A stretch of 64,000 bases of DNA from Acidovorax sp. NCPPB 3576 (GTDB lineage Bacteria; Pseudomonadota; Gammaproteobacteria; Burkholderiales; Burkholderiaceae_C). Positions 6,897 to 13,402 of the stretch are shown one piece after another; within the stretch, counting starts at the first letter, position 1, and every line of letters begins with the position of its first letter. Both the position numbers and the translations under genes were made by a program. The DNA is taken from contig NZ_CP097267.1 of assembly GCF_028473605.1 (NCBI RefSeq), forward strand, positions 1,976,501-2,040,500, written 5' to 3'. The notes beneath the pieces were generated by a model. The model did not search any database. It was not told the DNA's origin and was given only the letters and a program-made list of their open reading frames with translations.

Positions 6897-6973
6897 CGGC
6901 GTGTAGCGCAGCCTGGTAGCGCACTTGCATGGGGTGCAAGGGGTCGCGAGTTCGAATCCCGCCACGCCGACCA
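6897..6973 (+). tRNA. tRNA-Pro (anticodon GGG)
   Basis: A 77-base cloverleaf. The acceptor stem is CGGCGTG with CACGCCG, the anticodon stem is CTTGC with GCAAG, and the loop ATGGGGT gives anticodon GGG. The T loop is TTCGAAT and the CCA end is encoded. One A-C mismatch is seen in the T stem. It resembles E. coli proL. It marks the left edge of an accessory block. Confidence 0.96.
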
Positions 6974-7022: not shown

Positions 7023-7266
7023 CTTGTCTTGTCCCGCACTTCGTTTGCTGCATCCCACCGCAAGACGGCGACCTCCCCCTTTTCTTCCAGTGTCAGCCTC
7101 CTAGTCCTTGGCGAGCTGCTCAGCAAAACTCAAGCTTGGCCCGTGCCGCTAGTTTGTGCTTTCGGGTAATTGATCAACGATGCCGTAGAAAGCTCGCGAA
7201 ACGTTCAGCAATGCAAACGTCGCTTCGCAATACGCTTAGCCCCTATAAAAAAGGTGGAGGGCAGGG

Positions 7267-8439
7267 ATGAACGATCGGGCGATATGGCCGGCAAGCATGG
7301 GGGCGTTGACCCGTTTTGAGCCGCAAAGCTGGAGGGTAAATGCAACACAGGAGGTTTCCTACGAAGTGCGTCAGGTCGATGGCATCTTCACACCCAACTC
7401 CCTTCAATTGATCACTTGTGGCAAGGCGAAGCCCTGTTCACGCCAAGTCATTGTGATCGACGCGCATGTGGACCAAATCTACGGAGATGAGATGCGTGCC
7501 TACTATGCTCATCATCGGGCTGACGTTTCCATCCTGAGCCTTTCGGTTTCAGAGGAATCGAAAGACCTGGATTCAGCATTGATGATTGCTCGCCATATCG
7601 AAACTGCAGGTGTGCTGCGTCGTTCTGAGCCCGTGGTTGCTATCGGCGGCGGAGTATTGCTGGACCTGGTTGGATTTGCTGCTGGCTTGTATCGGCGGGG
7701 CATTCCTTACGTCAAGGTTCCTACCAACGCGATGGCGCTGTGGGATGCCGCAGTCGGCATCAAGACCGCCGTGAATGCGCTTGAGCGTCGAAATCGCTTG
7801 GGCTCATACCATGCGCCAACCTTGGCCTTGCTGGATCGCAGCTTTCTATCGACGGTGGAGTCCCGCGAACTGTCCAATGGGATGGGAGAGTTGCTCAAGC
7901 TCGCGGTGATCAAGAGCCCCCGTTTGTTCGACCTGCTGGAGCGGCATTCCGAGATGCTGCTGCTGACACGATTCCAGGACGCGATCATTGCTCCGGAAGT
8001 CATCGGTTTGGCGGTTGAAGGCATGCTGGAGGAGTTGGCTCCCAACCTGTGGGAACTCACGCTGGATCGATGCGTCGATTTTGGGCACTCGTTTGCACCC
8101 CTTCTCGAGATGAAGGCCCTGCCTGAACTGCTGCACGGCGAGGCAGTCGCTCTGGATGTGCTGTTTTCTTGCCGTTTGGCGCGCGCTAGAGGACTCCTTT
8201 CTGACCGGGACGTTCATCGGGTCGTGCGTGTGATGAAATCCATGCAGTTGCCTTTGCGGCATCGCTTCTTCGAACAGCCCGGCTTGCTTCAGGAGGCGCT
8301 GGAGGACACGATGCGTCATCGTGACGGGAGACAGCGATTGCCTCTGCCTGACGGGATTGGTGCATGCTGCTTTGTGAATGATGTGGATGCCCATGCCATT
8401 TGCGCTGCTGCCAAGGAGATGGCACATGCAGACGCTTGA
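7267..8439 (+). CDS. sugar phosphate cyclase, 2-epi-5-epi-valiolone synthase-like (3-dehydroquinate synthase superfamily)
   Basis: 390 residues, homologous to sedoheptulose 7-phosphate cyclases, which close the C7 sugar into a cyclitol using NAD and a divalent metal. The NAD-binding stretch is VAIGGGVLLDLVGFAAGLYR (about 124-143). The dehydroquinate-synthase metal ligands are kept as Glu208 (NGMGELLK), His274 (DFGHSFAP) and His290 (LLHGEAVALD). The C-terminal blocks EDTMRHRDGRQRLPLPDGI and FVNDVD are characteristic of the valiolone synthase group rather than of AroB. The motif after the NAD site reads VPTNAMALWDAAVGIKTAVN, whereas relatives usually have VPTTL..., so substrate or product may differ. 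GGAGG lies six bases before the ATG. It is the first gene of a unit with a GlcG-like protein, an SDR and a transporter. Which C7 cyclitol it makes cannot be told from sequence. Confidence 0.85.
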   Translation: MNDRAIWPASMGALTRFEPQSWRVNATQEVSYEVRQVDGIFTPNSLQLITCGKAKPCSRQVIVIDAHVDQIYGDEMRAYYAHHRADVSILSLSVSEESKDLDSALMIARHIETAGVLRRSEPVVAIGGGVLLDLVGFAAGLYRRGIPYVKVPTNAMALWDAAVGIKTAVNALERRNRLGSYHAPTLALLDRSFLSTVESRELSNGMGELLKLAVIKSPRLFDLLERHSEMLLLTRFQDAIIAPEVIGLAVEGMLEELAPNLWELTLDRCVDFGHSFAPLLEMKALPELLHGEAVALDVLFSCRLARARGLLSDRDVHRVVRVMKSMQLPLRHRFFEQPGLLQEALEDTMRHRDGRQRLPLPDGIGACCFVNDVDAHAICAAAKEMAHADA

Positions 8440-8860
8440 AACCGGTCTCTCGCGGTTGAGCGCCTGCCAGGCGCAGCAATTGGTGCAGAGCGCGCTGATC
8501 ACAGGATTGGACGAAGGCTTGGCCGTCTCGGCTGCAGCAGTAGACAGCTCAGGACACTTGCTGGCGTTTGCCCGTGCGGATGATGCCTTTCTGGGATCGA
8601 TCGACGCGTCGATTGCGAAGGCGCGGACGGCAGTTTATTTCCGCAGGGACACCGCCACGATGCAGCAGGCGCTGGAACAGGGCAAGACCGCTTATCTCGC
8701 TCTGGCCGACGTTCTGCCATTGGAAGGCGGCGTTCCACTCCTGGTCGGAGGAACGTTGGTGGGCGGACTCGGAATCAGCGGCGCCGCGTCTGTGCAGGAT
8801 GGGGTGCTGGCCCGGGCCATTGCATCGTTGCTGAACTCGTTGTCAGGTCGGACCACATGA
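8426..8860 (+). CDS. GlcG/HbpS-like (DUF336) protein
   Basis: 144 residues, a single GlcG/HbpS (DUF336) domain. Family hallmarks are the AAAVDSSGHLLAFARADDAF strand-turn-helix and the glycine-rich GGVPLLVGGTLVGGLGISGA. Some members bind haem or cobalamin-related ligands, and others sit in sugar or diol catabolic operons without a proven activity. AAGGAG at 8413-8418 supports the start at 8426, which overlaps the end of the cyclase gene by 14 bases. The 3' end overlaps the SDR gene by four bases (ATGA). The coupling suggests a part in the same pathway, but the reaction is unknown. Confidence 0.8.
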   Translation: MQTLETGLSRLSACQAQQLVQSALITGLDEGLAVSAAAVDSSGHLLAFARADDAFLGSIDASIAKARTAVYFRRDTATMQQALEQGKTAYLALADVLPLEGGVPLLVGGTLVGGLGISGAASVQDGVLARAIASLLNSLSGRTT

Positions 8861-9612
8861 ACGCTTTCAAGGAAAGAGTGGTGCTGGTGACTGGAGGAGG
8901 CACTGGCATCGGGAGGGCGACGGCGATGGCTTTCGCCAAGCAAGGCGCCCAGGTGGCCATTGCAGGGCGCACGGTGTCGTCCTGCGCGGAAACCGCAAAG
9001 ATGATTCTGGATGCTGGCGGCATCGGCTTTGCGGTCGCCTGCGATGTTTCCAGCGAAAACGACGTCATGAATCTGATGGACGAAGTCGAGCGCCGTCTTG
9101 GCGTGGTGGACATCGCTTTCCTGAATGCGGGCGTCGGAACGGCCTCGGCCATCGTCGATCAAGACATTGATGCTTTTGAGGCGGTCATGCGCACAAACTG
9201 CACCGGGCTCATGCTGTGCATGAAGCACTTGCTGAGACCGATGTACGAACGTCGCTCGGGTTGCATCGTCAACAACCTTTCTGTACACGCCCATCGCACG
9301 ATTCTGGAGGGGACTGGCGCGTACACCGCGTCAAAGCATGCGGCCCTTGCACTGACGAAGGCCGCCGCAGTCGAGGCGGCGACCTATGGCGTGCGTGTGA
9401 ATGCCGTGTCCCCTGGGCCGATTTCCACAGAGATGCTGGCCCGCTCCAGTGCCGTTTCTGGAGGCCTCGAGGGCTGGGCGCAGCGTCTGCCCATGAAGCG
9501 CGTTGGTGAACCGCATGAGGTGGCGCAGGCCGTGCTCTGGCTCTGCAGCCCTGAGGCGTCATTTCTGACAGGTGCGGTCGTTCCAGTGGACGGTGGGTTT
9601 CTCTCACTTTGA
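8857..9612 (+). CDS. short-chain dehydrogenase/reductase
   Basis: 251 residues, classical SDR. TGGGTGIG at residues 12-19 binds NAD(P), NAG is at 90-92, and the catalytic residues are Ser142, Tyr156 and Lys160 (AYTASK). The C-terminal PVDGGFLSL is typical. It overlaps the preceding gene by ATGA, so translation is coupled. Given the cyclase upstream, oxidation or reduction of a cyclitol carbonyl is a reasonable guess. SDRs such as AcbN act on phosphorylated C7 cyclitols in the acarbose pathway. The substrate cannot be read from sequence. Confidence 0.88.
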   Translation: MNAFKERVVLVTGGGTGIGRATAMAFAKQGAQVAIAGRTVSSCAETAKMILDAGGIGFAVACDVSSENDVMNLMDEVERRLGVVDIAFLNAGVGTASAIVDQDIDAFEAVMRTNCTGLMLCMKHLLRPMYERRSGCIVNNLSVHAHRTILEGTGAYTASKHAALALTKAAAVEAATYGVRVNAVSPGPISTEMLARSSAVSGGLEGWAQRLPMKRVGEPHEVAQAVLWLCSPEASFLTGAVVPVDGGFLSL

Positions 9613-9621
9613 AGCCCGGCC

Positions 9622-10521
9622 ATGACATGGATTGTTTTGGGCCTGCTTGCGGGTCTGGTGCTGGGAACCTACGATTTTTTGACCAAGCTCGCGCTCAAGG
9701 AAAAAACAGTTCTGGAGGTGGTGTTTTGGTCATCCGTTCTTGGGGCGCTGATCTGGATACCTTTCTTCTTCCTACCCACCGTGTGGGCGGGCTCTTTGCA
9801 ACCGATGGGTTTGTACCCCGCAGCGTTGACCACAGCCGAGCAACTGGCCTTGCTACCCAAATCCGCAATGATGGTGGTCACTTGGGTTCTGTCGTATTAC
9901 TCGGTCAAATCATTGCCGCTTTCGATTTCCGCTGGCGTGCGCGCTTCGGGCCCCCTCTGGACGGCGGTAGGAGCCATCGTTTTTCTATCCGAGCAACTCA
10001 ACTGGTGGCAGTGGCTGGGGCTCGCGGTTTCCATGGGTTCCTATTATTTGTTTTCGTTGATTGGGCAAAAAGAAGGCATCAGTTTCCAGCGCAACGGCTG
10101 GGTGCTTTGCATGCTCGCAGCCACATTGCTGTCGTCTGCCAATGCGCTTTACGACAAGCACATTCTTGCGACCCTTCAACTGGATTTGGCCGCGGTTCAA
10201 GCGTACTCGGCGGTTCAGCGCGGTGGGATGGCGCTGCTGCTGTTGCCGTGGGTACTCGGAACGCTGGAATGCCGAAGCCTGCTGTCCCGAAATTGGGCGG
10301 TGCCCGCCATCGCCGCAGCCTATGTACTGGCCGAGTTCATTTATCTGACCGCCGTGCAAACCGAAGGGGCACTGATCTCGGTGATATCGGTGCTTCGGCG
10401 AACCAATCTGGTCATGGTGTTTGCCTTGAGCGCTCTGTTTTTTGCCGAGCGATTCATCCGGCAAAAAATATTGGCGATTGCAGGTGTTCTGGTCGGTATC
10501 GTGCTCACCATCGTTCATTAG
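9622..10521 (+). CDS. EamA/DMT-type inner-membrane transporter
   Basis: 299 residues, about ten hydrophobic segments in two similar halves, as in the drug/metabolite transporter superfamily. The first half starts TWIVLGLLAGLVLGTYDFL and the second half starts near WVLCMLAATLLSSANALYDK. It lies nine bases after the SDR and is probably the last gene of the unit. It may export or import the cyclitol or a precursor. Its stop codon overlaps that of the convergent LysR gene by four bases, leaving no room for an intergenic terminator. Confidence 0.85.
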   Translation: MTWIVLGLLAGLVLGTYDFLTKLALKEKTVLEVVFWSSVLGALIWIPFFFLPTVWAGSLQPMGLYPAALTTAEQLALLPKSAMMVVTWVLSYYSVKSLPLSISAGVRASGPLWTAVGAIVFLSEQLNWWQWLGLAVSMGSYYLFSLIGQKEGISFQRNGWVLCMLAATLLSSANALYDKHILATLQLDLAAVQAYSAVQRGGMALLLLPWVLGTLECRSLLSRNWAVPAIAAAYVLAEFIYLTAVQTEGALISVISVLRRTNLVMVFALSALFFAERFIRQKILAIAGVLVGIVLTIVH

Positions 10522-11393
10522 CCGTCCTGGACCAGAGAGCGAATCCAATGGATCACCGTGCTGCCATGGCGAGAGATCATGGCCCGTTCCGATGCAAGCA
10601 AAAAATACGACTGCTCAGAAGGAATGGCGATGTCGGAGACCTGGACCAAGCTGCCGTTTTGAAGGAGACCTTTGACAAGGGAACGTCGGCCCAGCGCGAT
10701 TCCTTGCAGATTGAGAGCCGCATCCAACATGAAACCAGTGTCGGAATACGTCAGCGTCCGCTGTGCCGGAGAAATCTGTATCCCTGCTTTTGTCAGCCAG
10801 GGCTCCCAAGGCTGCCTGCTGTGGGACAGAAATACCGCGCGTTTGAACAGGTCAGCGACGCTGTGTGTATTCCACTGTTTCAGGTAAGCCGGAGCTGCCA
10901 CGGGAAACCATTCGTCCTCCAGCAACGGTTCGCAATGATGGGCTTGAGGGCGGGCCTTGGCGAACCGGATGGCAATGTCTGCCTCCCCTTGGTCAATGTC
11001 TACTTTGCAAGTCGTCGGCGACACCTCGATGGAAACGGCGGGATGCAAGCGCTGAAATTCCGTGAGCGCAGGCACCAACCGAAAGCGCGCAAAGGAGGGC
11101 AATACGCTGATCCGGATGACGCTGCGCTCTTGAGCGAAGCCAGAGAAAGCGGCCTCCAGCGTGTCCAGCGAGTCTTTCATTCGTTGATGCAGATACTCGC
11201 CCTCAGTGGTCATTGCGACCGAGCGAGTGGTCCGCATGAACAAACTGCTGCCCAGCAGGCGTTCAAGTTCACGAATCCGGTGGCTCACAGAACTGTGGGA
11301 AATGTTCAGCTCATCCGCCGCTTTGTTGAAGCTGCGCATGCGCGCTACAGCGTCGAAAGCAAGAATCAAATGGATGGGAGGTATCTTTCGCAT
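10518..11393 (-). CDS. LysR-family transcriptional regulator (GcvA-like)
   Basis: About 291 residues. The N-terminal winged helix (MRKIPPIHLILAFDAVARMR, then FNKAADELNISHSSVSHRIR) is followed by a substrate-binding domain of the GcvA type. The start at 11393 matches the usual MRKLPPLNALRAF beginning of this subgroup. An in-frame ATG at 11468 would add 25 residues inside the ROK gene. The start codon is back-to-back with that of the ROK kinase (shared CATG), so its promoter and any operator must lie within the kinase gene or in its own coding region. It is the likely regulator of the flanking cyclitol genes, and the effector is unknown. Confidence 0.88.
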   Translation of the reverse strand: MRKIPPIHLILAFDAVARMRSFNKAADELNISHSSVSHRIRELERLLGSSLFMRTTRSVAMTTEGEYLHQRMKDSLDTLEAAFSGFAQERSVIRISVLPSFARFRLVPALTEFQRLHPAVSIEVSPTTCKVDIDQGEADIAIRFAKARPQAHHCEPLLEDEWFPVAAPAYLKQWNTHSVADLFKRAVFLSHSRQPWEPWLTKAGIQISPAQRTLTYSDTGFMLDAALNLQGIALGRRSLVKGLLQNGSLVQVSDIAIPSEQSYFLLASERAMISRHGSTVIHWIRSLVQDG

Positions 11394-12306
11394 GGACGCG
11401 GATAAGGAAAATTCGAAGGAAAGATTCCATATCGGGATCGATCTGGGTGGGACAAAAATCGAAGGCATCGTACTCGACCATCAATATCGAGAATGCCGGC
11501 GAATCCGAATGGAAACCCGATCCAGCGATGGATATGCCAATGTTTTACAGCGCATTATCGAAATCCATTCCCAGCTGGCGATGGTGGCTTTGGGTAAAGA
11601 GGTGACATTGGGAATCTGCACTCCTGGATCCATCTCGAAAACCAACGGGCTGTTGAAAAATTGCAATGCAACCGAATTGAATGGGCATCCTTTGCAGGCA
11701 GATCTGCTTCAGCGTCTGGGCCGTCCGTTCACGATGGAAAACGATGCCAATTGCTTTGCGATCGCAGAAGCCCGCCATGGCGCGGGCAGCGGGCACGGCT
11801 GTGTGCTGGGAATCGTGCTCGGCACGGGAGTGGGGGCAGGCATCGTAGTCAATGGGCACCTTTGGAGCGGGCGTCATGGCATTGCCGGTGAGTGGGGCCA
11901 TATGTCTGTCGATCCCAATGGACCTCCTTGCTACTGCGGCCGCAAAGGGTGTGCCGAGCGCTATCTGAGCGGGGCAGCCTTGGAGGCCAACTACCAGCAG
12001 TCCACAGGCCAGTCTGCCGATGCAGCCCGCATCGTCGAAATGGCGCGGCGGGGTAACAAAGCTGCGTTCGACGTGTTGGACCAGTTTCTCAGCCGGTTTG
12101 CCGGAGCGGTCGCCAACGTGGTTGCCGTGCTGGACCCGGATGCCATCGTCATTGGCGGCGGACTTGCAAGCATCGATGAACTGTACGAAGAAGGTGCCCT
12201 GCGGTTGCAGCGGATGGTTTTCAACGATGCCTTTCATACCCCGGTGCTACGCAATAGGCTCGGCAACTCGGCGGGCGTGATCGGCGCTGCCATGGTGGGG
12301 GTTTGA
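11392..12306 (+). CDS. ROK-family sugar or cyclitol kinase
   Basis: 304 residues. The phosphate-binding DLGGTK is at 17-22 and the catalytic Asp118 is in MENDAN. The ROK zinc signature is His170 with Cys180, Cys182 and Cys187 (GHMSVDP..., CYCGRKGCAERYLSG). Family members phosphorylate glucose, N-acetyl amino sugars or, in acarbose and validamycin clusters, C7 cyclitols (AcbM, ValC). The company of a valiolone-synthase-like cyclase favours the last option, but this is inference. GGGAGG at 11376-11381 supports the start. The gene is divergent from LysR with overlapping start codons and one base ahead of the PfkB gene. Confidence 0.88.
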   Translation: MDADKENSKERFHIGIDLGGTKIEGIVLDHQYRECRRIRMETRSSDGYANVLQRIIEIHSQLAMVALGKEVTLGICTPGSISKTNGLLKNCNATELNGHPLQADLLQRLGRPFTMENDANCFAIAEARHGAGSGHGCVLGIVLGTGVGAGIVVNGHLWSGRHGIAGEWGHMSVDPNGPPCYCGRKGCAERYLSGAALEANYQQSTGQSADAARIVEMARRGNKAAFDVLDQFLSRFAGAVANVVAVLDPDAIVIGGGLASIDELYEEGALRLQRMVFNDAFHTPVLRNRLGNSAGVIGAAMVGV

Positions 12307-12307
12307 C

Positions 12308-13225
12308 GTGCGTGTGGTCACGATTGGCGGTGCCACCCTCGATATCGTGGTTGCAGGAGCGAATACAGCGCTTGGCCCCGGAGCCAAACATGACGTGGCC
12401 AGCATAGGCTGGTCGATGGGCGGAGGTGCGGTGAATGCTGCGCTGGGGTTTGCTGCCTTTCACGCGCACGTGATTGCCTTGTGCGCCGTTGGTGCGGATG
12501 TGGAAGGCCGATGGTTGCGTGATACGTTGATCCGGCAAGGCATTTCGGTGGAAGGCGTACAAACCATTCCCGGATGCGCCACGGGTAAAGCCGTGATCCA
12601 CCTGGACCCGCAGGGCGAGGCTGCCGTGTTCGCACAGCGTGGTGCCAGCACCCGGCTGTCGTTGAAGGGGGCGGCTGCGATGCTCATGCAAGCAGACGTG
12701 GTGTATATCTCTGCATTGGCAGATGCAGCCACTGTCCAATTGAACCAGACACTGACCGAGCCTTCGTGCCATCCTTTTCGTTTGGCGGTCAATCCGGGCG
12801 CACGTCAGTTGCGGCAATCGCCACACCTTTTGGAGCCGTCATTGCAAGCGGCAGACTTGATTTGCTTGAATGCAGTCGAAGCACAACTGCTGGCAGCCAG
12901 CAGGAAATTGGCCTGCACAGGAGATCTGAGCGCAAGCGACGCCGTAGAGCTCGCTTGTGCATTGGCGCATCGTCCGGCGCAATGCGTGCTGATTACCCTC
13001 GGAGCTGACGGGGCCGCGTTTTTCGATGGGTCGAAGGGACACTATCACCCTGCAGAGCGCGTAGCCGTCGTTTCCACGTTGGGCGCTGGAGATGCTTACG
13101 CGTCGGCCTTTGCTTTTCACTGGTTTTCAGGCCATGGCGCCAGCGCGTCCTTGCTGGCCGCCAATCGCAGCGCTGCCGTCGTGCTTCAAGTCGCTTCTGC
13201 AAATCAGGCAACTTTGGCCATGTAG
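12308..13225 (+). CDS. PfkB-family carbohydrate kinase
   Basis: 305 residues, ribokinase fold. The N-terminal GGGAVNAALGFAAF (38-51), NAVE (188-191, the NxxE magnesium motif) and STLGAGDAYASAF with catalytic Asp262 are all present. It starts with GTG one base after the ROK stop codon, so the two kinases are co-expressed. Two kinases in one unit suggest sequential phosphorylation, for example of a primary hydroxyl and then a ring hydroxyl. Ribose, fructose or nucleoside substrates are alternatives. A strong terminator follows. Confidence 0.87.
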   Translation: MRVVTIGGATLDIVVAGANTALGPGAKHDVASIGWSMGGGAVNAALGFAAFHAHVIALCAVGADVEGRWLRDTLIRQGISVEGVQTIPGCATGKAVIHLDPQGEAAVFAQRGASTRLSLKGAAAMLMQADVVYISALADAATVQLNQTLTEPSCHPFRLAVNPGARQLRQSPHLLEPSLQAADLICLNAVEAQLLAASRKLACTGDLSASDAVELACALAHRPAQCVLITLGADGAAFFDGSKGHYHPAERVAVVSTLGAGDAYASAFAFHWFSGHGASASLLAANRSAAVVLQVASANQATLAM

Positions 13226-13252
13226 AAAATCACCGGAGCGAACTGGCGAACA

Positions 13253-13286
13253 AATAAAAAAGCCACCCGAAGGTGGCTTTTTTATT
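13253..13286 (+). terminator. rho-independent terminator after the kinase genes
   Basis: A perfect fifteen-base stem (13253-13267 with 13272-13286) around loop CGAA, with an A run on one side and a T run on the other. It is symmetrical and may also stop transcription arriving from tRNA-Ser on the other strand. Confidence 0.93.
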
Positions 13287-13311
13287 TCCCGGCTTGGAGT
13301 CGGAACTGTTT

Positions 13312-13402
<91 letters not shown>

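Follow-up and report, generated by a model that had tools for sequence, protein, structure and literature searches.

Pathways built on 2-epi-5-epi-valiolone synthase (EEVS) lead to bioactive sugar mimics, among them acarbose, validamycin, and streptol, an inhibitor of plant roots. The sections of PMC9200736 and PMC7081202 that set out the acarbose route order its enzymes as cyclase, ROK kinase, epimerase, AcbL, the short-chain dehydrogenase/reductase (SDR) AcbN, and a second kinase, AcbU, while PMC8599487, in its part on leaf-nodule Burkholderia, describes a plasmid that carries an EEVS gene, hosts that contain streptol and kirkamide, and inhibition of root growth by the streptol that Candidatus Burkholderia kirkii supplies to the plant. 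Here we describe seven genes in a 64,000-nucleotide stretch of Acidovorax sp. NCPPB 3576 (contig NZ_CP097267.1, positions 1,976,501 to 2,040,500; hereafter the window). We read them, with a probability of roughly 0.6, as a self-contained C7-cyclitol cassette in which a 2-epi-5-epi-valiolone (EEV)-type ring would be made, reduced, phosphorylated, and exported under LysR control. The ring-forming enzyme is of a known kind and the set of partner genes around it looks new; the open-licence literature searched, mostly without subscription papers, gave no description of a cassette of this kind. The genes, called as open reading frames (ORFs) with Pfam matches above curated cut-offs, are as follows, in window coordinates:

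7267..8439, + strand: sedoheptulose 7-phosphate cyclase, ValA/EEVS-like (PF01761, 103 bits; PF24621, 74 bits)
8426..8860, + strand: GlcG/HbpS (DUF336) protein of a distinct type (PF03928, 97 bits against a cut-off of 25), overlapping the end of the cyclase gene
8857..9612, + strand: SDR (PF13561, 212 bits; motifs)
9622..10521, + strand: EamA/DMT-family transporter, a putative exporter by inferred direction (PF00892, 61 bits)
10518..11393 (longest ORF to 11468), - strand: LysR-family regulator (PF00126 and PF03466)
about 11392..12306, + strand: ROK kinase of a fructokinase-like branch (PF00480, 246 bits; NF007108, 264.6 bits)
12308..13225, + strand: PfkB/ribokinase-family kinase with a GTG start at 12308 (PF00294, 120 bits)

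The first line of evidence is the cyclase itself. Its best solved relative is 4p53 (E 7.5e-98), followed by 5tpr (E 6e-67), which we take to be the desmethyl-4-deoxygadusol synthase (DDGS) of Anabaena, and then by 3-dehydroquinate synthases (DHQS). The entry 4p53 is ValA according to the relevant part of PMC4426668. Identity is 46% to ValA (171/371), 125/360 to 5tpr, 90/318 to the DHQS 3okf, and 27% (87/320) to the genome's own AroB, a separate gene at C1:1022009, about 0.96 Mb from the cyclase. In a tree of 163 rows (built by a quick method, with DDGS on a long branch and no confirmed 2-epi-valiolone synthase or 2-deoxy-scyllo-inosose synthase among the rows), a branch with 100% Shimodaira-Hasegawa-like approximate likelihood-ratio (SH-aLRT) support separates 26 AroB/DHQS rows from ValA, DDGS, and the window cyclase. 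The window cyclase sits in a fully supported clade of 25 rows with its genus relatives and Variovorax boronicumulans, and ValA in a different one. All six cyclases from cassettes of this kind retain E, H, and H at what we take to be the three metal-ligand positions, and all six share with ValA a D/H pair, at positions that are presumably the published fingerprint sites, where DDGS has A/T and 25/25 AroB sequences have N plus another residue; this comparison covers two of the 14 published sites. The fingerprint passage of PMC4426668 describes two sites that separate ValA from DDGS. The earlier note on this DNA, made from the letters alone, had proposed a valiolone-synthase-like enzyme, and the proposal stands: by sequence the cyclase is ValA-like and not an AroB, and its sequence class supports the conversion of sedoheptulose 7-phosphate to EEV.

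The second line of evidence is joint conservation. Of the outcomes that the earlier note had named as speaking against its reading, neither a cyclase placed within AroB nor a lack of joint conservation was observed. In a sample of 17 genomes, the window's own included, from its inferred genus, Paracidovorax, the cyclase (67-100% identity) is present in six. EamA and ROK relatives, at the E-value limits used, are confined to the same six, PfkB relatives above 200 bits occur in exactly those six (a single weak paralogue, at 64 bits, is found in genome G009), and so do HbpS relatives at 49-100% identity, next to a distant GlcG paralogue (34-41%) in 17/17. These genome-wide searches for joint presence covered the cyclase, HbpS, EamA, ROK, and PfkB. 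All seven genes keep the same order and orientation in 6/6 carriers (loci L003 and L004 are genomes G010 and G003 again). Shared order and joint presence in the same six genomes exclude a chance neighbourhood, and on this comparison the seven genes form one unit. Ratios of non-synonymous to synonymous change against carrier G016 are 0.04-0.21 across all seven genes, which by this measure are under purifying selection, and motifs that presumably serve catalysis are intact in the SDR (TGGGTGIG and YTASK), the ROK (DLGGTK, GTGVGAG, and CYCGRKGCAE), and the PfkB (GGGAVN and GAGDA). Judged from its sequence, the cassette is real, conserved, and functional-looking.

The cassette occupies three genomic addresses. 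G000, G016, and G003 hold it beside tRNA-Pro with tRNA-Ser beyond, which for the window agrees with the earlier placement of all seven genes between two tRNA genes; G009 and G011 (92.8% identical over 400 bp upstream) hold it at a second, and G010 at a third. The features around the genes are:

6897-6973, + strand: tRNA-Pro, flanking
7169..7236, + strand: conserved upstream element ending in TACGCT, a candidate LysR operator and promoter
13252..13287, no strand: perfect 16-nt inverted repeat with A/T-rich ends, likely a terminator common to tRNA-Ser
13313-13402, - strand: tRNA-Ser, flanking

In the upstream element, 31/68 ungapped columns are identical across the window, G011, and G010, where 200 shuffles of dinucleotide blocks averaged 13.5 and never exceeded 17, and the element recurs upstream of the cyclase at all three addresses. 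Being common to different addresses, it travels together with the cassette and is the foremost candidate operator for the cassette's LysR, which may bind there. A consensus promoter scan gave one site where 2.2 were expected and was thus uninformative, and an Rfam scan of the window locus returned nothing beyond the two tRNAs. Between the tRNA-Pro side and the element, 7031-7168 (about 138 bp) is unalignable among the three genomes of this address, and both flanks are 80-98% identical.

The spacing of the genes looks like that of two close-packed operons, cyclase-HbpS-SDR-EamA and ROK-PfkB; the LysR gene lies between the two and is read from the other strand. The cyclase and HbpS genes overlap by 14 nt, HbpS and SDR share an ATGA, SDR and EamA are 9 nt apart, and ROK and PfkB 1 nt. 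The likely HbpS start (ATG at 8426, preceded by aaggaga) lies within the last codons of the cyclase gene, so the two are probably translationally coupled. A CATG at 11391-11394 holds the likely start codons of both LysR (-) and ROK (+), which leaves no intergenic room for promoters there; in G009-G011 the ROK similarity starts about 10 residues later. The cluster has 58.2% G+C and the window 64.1%, and because the adjacent pheS/pheT genes are also low, this is uninformative about transfer. An integrative island with its own integrase was also considered: no integrase family is present among the seven proteins, and no direct repeat of 12 nt was found inside either edge (the edges were not compared against each other). 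In G016, two transposase genes (DDE_Tnp_1_5; L043 3776-4723 and 4969-5937) lie between PfkB and tRNA-Ser, along with one ORF that has no Pfam family. The scanned flanks in G010 (a TonB receptor, an M20 peptidase, a LysR, and two familyless ORFs) and the scanned part of those in G009 (a histidine kinase and a flavin oxidoreductase) contain no cyclitol gene.

Among the unusual partners is the GlcG/HbpS-like protein. It keeps the family-invariant D40, R50, K65, G101, G102, P104, L105, and D125 (40 aligned sequences), and its predicted structure is confident (mean predicted local distance difference test score, pLDDT, 92). Eight cassette-linked sequences (the window, five genus relatives, and two Variovorax, with linkage judged from contigs of equal size) have in common R73, R74, M79, Q80, L83, E84, Y90, L91, and A92, at each of which the 89 sequences of suitable length among 100 lower-ranking homologues show another or no clear majority residue. 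The motif FRR.T..MQ..LE.G...YLA is found in 8/8 linked sequences and in nine of the 120 homologues listed, four of them among the eight. An Arg-Arg pair of this kind would suit an anionic or polyhydroxylated ligand. DUF336 proteins are associated, in the portion of PMC8153426 that treats them, with the sensing of formaldehyde, with the binding of haem and cobalamin, and with functions in metabolic clusters for which there is no explanation. Tentatively, and against the odds as we judge them, the protein could be dedicated to the cyclitol, as its enzyme or its binding partner, and might for instance replace the missing AcbO/AcbL steps; were this true, plant-associated Paracidovorax would have a new and minimal way of turning sedoheptulose 7-phosphate into a cyclitol that mimics glucose and is exported, and catalysis or carriage would be added to the functions of the DUF336 family.

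Sequence supports the class of the cyclase, the gene families, operon coupling, joint conservation, and the shared upstream element; what we infer is the product, the order of steps, the direction of transport, the kinase substrates, and the part played by the HbpS-like protein. The likeliest reading is of a pathway under LysR control in which a C7 cyclitol without an amino group is formed, reduced, and exported. The cyclase would convert sedoheptulose 7-phosphate, drawn from the pentose phosphate pathway, into EEV or a close epimer, and the SDR would reduce the ring ketone of this product or of a later intermediate. The coupled HbpS-like protein might bind the reactive keto-cyclitol as a sensor, carrier, or catalytic partner, the ROK-PfkB operon would phosphorylate the cyclitol, either as pathway steps (at 7-O, then at a second hydroxyl) or in salvage, and the EamA protein would export the finished unaminated compound. 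The LysR may act at the conserved upstream element and so control the cyclase operon.

Several observations weigh against this scheme. The D/H pair also occurs in 7/7 cyclases of another clade, three loci of which have LuxS, methyltransferase, UbiA, or TIM-barrel neighbours, so the pair fits EEV formation without proving it, and the tree contained no confirmed 2-epi-valiolone synthase. The lack of a recognisable epimerase or dehydratase among the seven proteins leaves a valienol-type product unaccounted for. No GlcG/HbpS gene lies in the annotated stretches around three plasmid cyclases, so pairing with a DUF336 protein is not a general feature. The cyclase and the kinases sit in two separate operons, and PfkB is the fastest-changing gene, with 43-72% identity among carriers (it is the least conserved of the seven against G016, G003, and G011). 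The cassette ROK is fructokinase-like and differs from the ROKs that accompany EEVS on three reference plasmids. The latter, encoded beside EEVS-type cyclases in A. vitis, R. rhizogenes, and S. clavuligerus, are longer proteins (340-357 aa), and of the three only that of R. rhizogenes matches the cassette ROK at E 1e-3 (25%, E 6e-4). With the A. vitis ROK as query, there was no match in the window's own genome and a best E of 0.004 in the other five carriers.

There are two alternatives, and we consider each of them unlikely. The first is that the enzyme is a sedoheptulose 7-phosphate cyclase making another ring, such as 2-epi-valiolone or a new epimer, and that its odd partners reflect that product. 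The cassette cyclases do form a clade of their own apart from that of ValA, the partner genes are unlike those of known EEV pathways, and a warning in the section of PMC5133447 on tree placement, that product cannot be read from position in a tree, favours this view; the 46% identity to ValA and the EEVS D/H pair in 6/6 count against it. The second, about as doubtful, is that the two operons are linked and serve different ends, with ROK and PfkB phosphorylating plant sugars or sedoheptulose, not the cyclitol, and so supplying the cyclase with sedoheptulose 7-phosphate. The kinases do lie in a separate operon, the PfkB is ribokinase-like, and the ROK has fructokinase as its best NCBIfam model, below that model's cut-off of 443 bits, with many relatives at 49-55% identity carrying the source name fructokinase; among solved structures, the closest to it are N-acetylglucosamine kinases and glucokinases. 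However, the pentose phosphate pathway already supplies sedoheptulose 7-phosphate, and no sugar uptake gene is found among the seven. A divergent second DHQS for the shikimate pathway, for which a 194-bit match to the NCBIfam aroB model speaks, is very unlikely and was rejected: that score is under the cut-off of 305, a standard AroB is encoded elsewhere in the genome, the tree separates the two groups, and the Asn typical of DHQS is Asp here, as in ValA.

Among the 19 nearest cyclase clusters (P0001-P0018 and P0020, excluding the window's own fragment P0019; P0011 is G010 again), nine have a longest contig equal in size to that of a ROK relative, two more, both Variovorax boronicumulans, to that of an HbpS relative, and eight to neither, which as evidence of linkage is indirect; none of 20 farther cyclases is on a contig of equal size with the listed ROK rows. 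Cyclase relatives at E <= 1e-60 were found in 4/398 other genomes of the family, 3/368 of the class, 0/397 of the phylum, and 0/398 of the order, and these seven matches fall in a separate cyclase clade. The four samples overlap, and because they failed to pick up known carriers (five of the genus, Variovorax boronicumulans, and A. vitis), they measure rarity poorly. The separate clade is a second one of betaproteobacterial cyclases (38-40% identity; L065, L067, and L068, with L036-L042 related), whose partly scanned neighbours are a LuxS-family protein, a methyltransferase, and UbiA at L067, LuxS, a methyltransferase, and a xylose-isomerase-like TIM barrel at L068, and a TIM barrel and a Crp-type regulator at L065; these loci resemble the ebo operon without clearly being one. 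Relatives of HbpS (P0124, 66%) and ROK (P0245, 68%) lie on contigs of equal size (470848 bases), where no close cyclase was listed, and this pair is possibly a derivative of the cassette.

The presence or absence of the cassette as a block within one genus makes it a small, tractable system for a new C7 cyclitol, in a genus whose named species include plant pathogens, and it may reveal a role for DUF336 proteins in metabolism and the recruitment of kinases and transporters outside the actinobacterial scheme. Like the acarbose (acb) and validamycin (val) clusters, it combines a ValA/AcbC-type cyclase with a ROK kinase, an SDR, and a second gene resembling a sugar kinase; its DUF336 protein, EamA transporter, and LysR regulator are additions. 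The earlier analogy to these pathways is borne out in part, for the cyclase class, and is weak where it equates the ROK with AcbM/ValC: given how unlike the three reference ROKs it is, the likeness holds at the level of the superfamily, and it apparently belongs to another branch, as judged without a direct comparison with AcbM/ValC. The cassette may have taken up a different ROK, or its ROK may act on another substrate. As the earlier note had said, later genes of the known clusters are missing. By Pfam family, the seven proteins include no TIM-barrel or VOC family (AcbO/ValD epimerase), no medium-chain dehydrogenase/reductase (MDR) family (AcbL-type dehydratase), and no aminotransferase, nucleotidyltransferase, or (pseudo)glycosyltransferase, the rest of the genome not having been searched for these; nor is there a phosphatase among the seven. 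Nothing in these seven sequences points to amination, nucleotide activation, or glycosylation.

Among more distant systems, the ebo operon, with its EboD cyclase, shares the sugar phosphate cyclase superfamily; an ebo-type operon was rejected for this locus, as none of the UbiA, TatD-like, and xylose-isomerase-like genes that the account of ebo content in PMC5133447 includes has a counterpart among the seven proteins. With the GlcG/HbpS/EfgA (DUF336) family, the HbpS-like protein shares the Pfam family and the invariant positions, to which it adds a distinct motif and linkage to a cyclase. Plasmid pRvVAR031a of Agrobacterium vitis likewise brings a LysR, a cyclase (47% identity), a ROK, an SDR, and a transporter together in one small cluster, but its ROK has no blastp match at E 1e-3, its SDR is just 24% identical, and it has its own MDR, TIM-barrel isomerase, and major facilitator superfamily (MFS) transporter. 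EEVS-type plasmid clusters in A. vitis VAR03-1 (L062 7953-15474) and R. rhizogenes C6.5 (L063 7866-11383) both have a ROK and a TIM-barrel isomerase, and the former, with an MDR, an SDR, and an MFS transporter besides, looks from its genes like a valienol-type route. Such a system had been thought unexpected in a betaproteobacterium, a view softened by the EEVS gene on the leaf-nodule Burkholderia plasmid. Candidatus Burkholderia kirkii, likened here by its description in the relevant part of PMC8599487 and not by sequence, is an obligate symbiont whose EEVS is plasmid-borne; it too is a plant-associated betaproteobacterium with an EEVS, and its products are small C7 cyclitols, of which streptol is unaminated. 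The cassette would be expected to yield a small C7 cyclitol that lacks an amino group and is of the same general sort as streptol.

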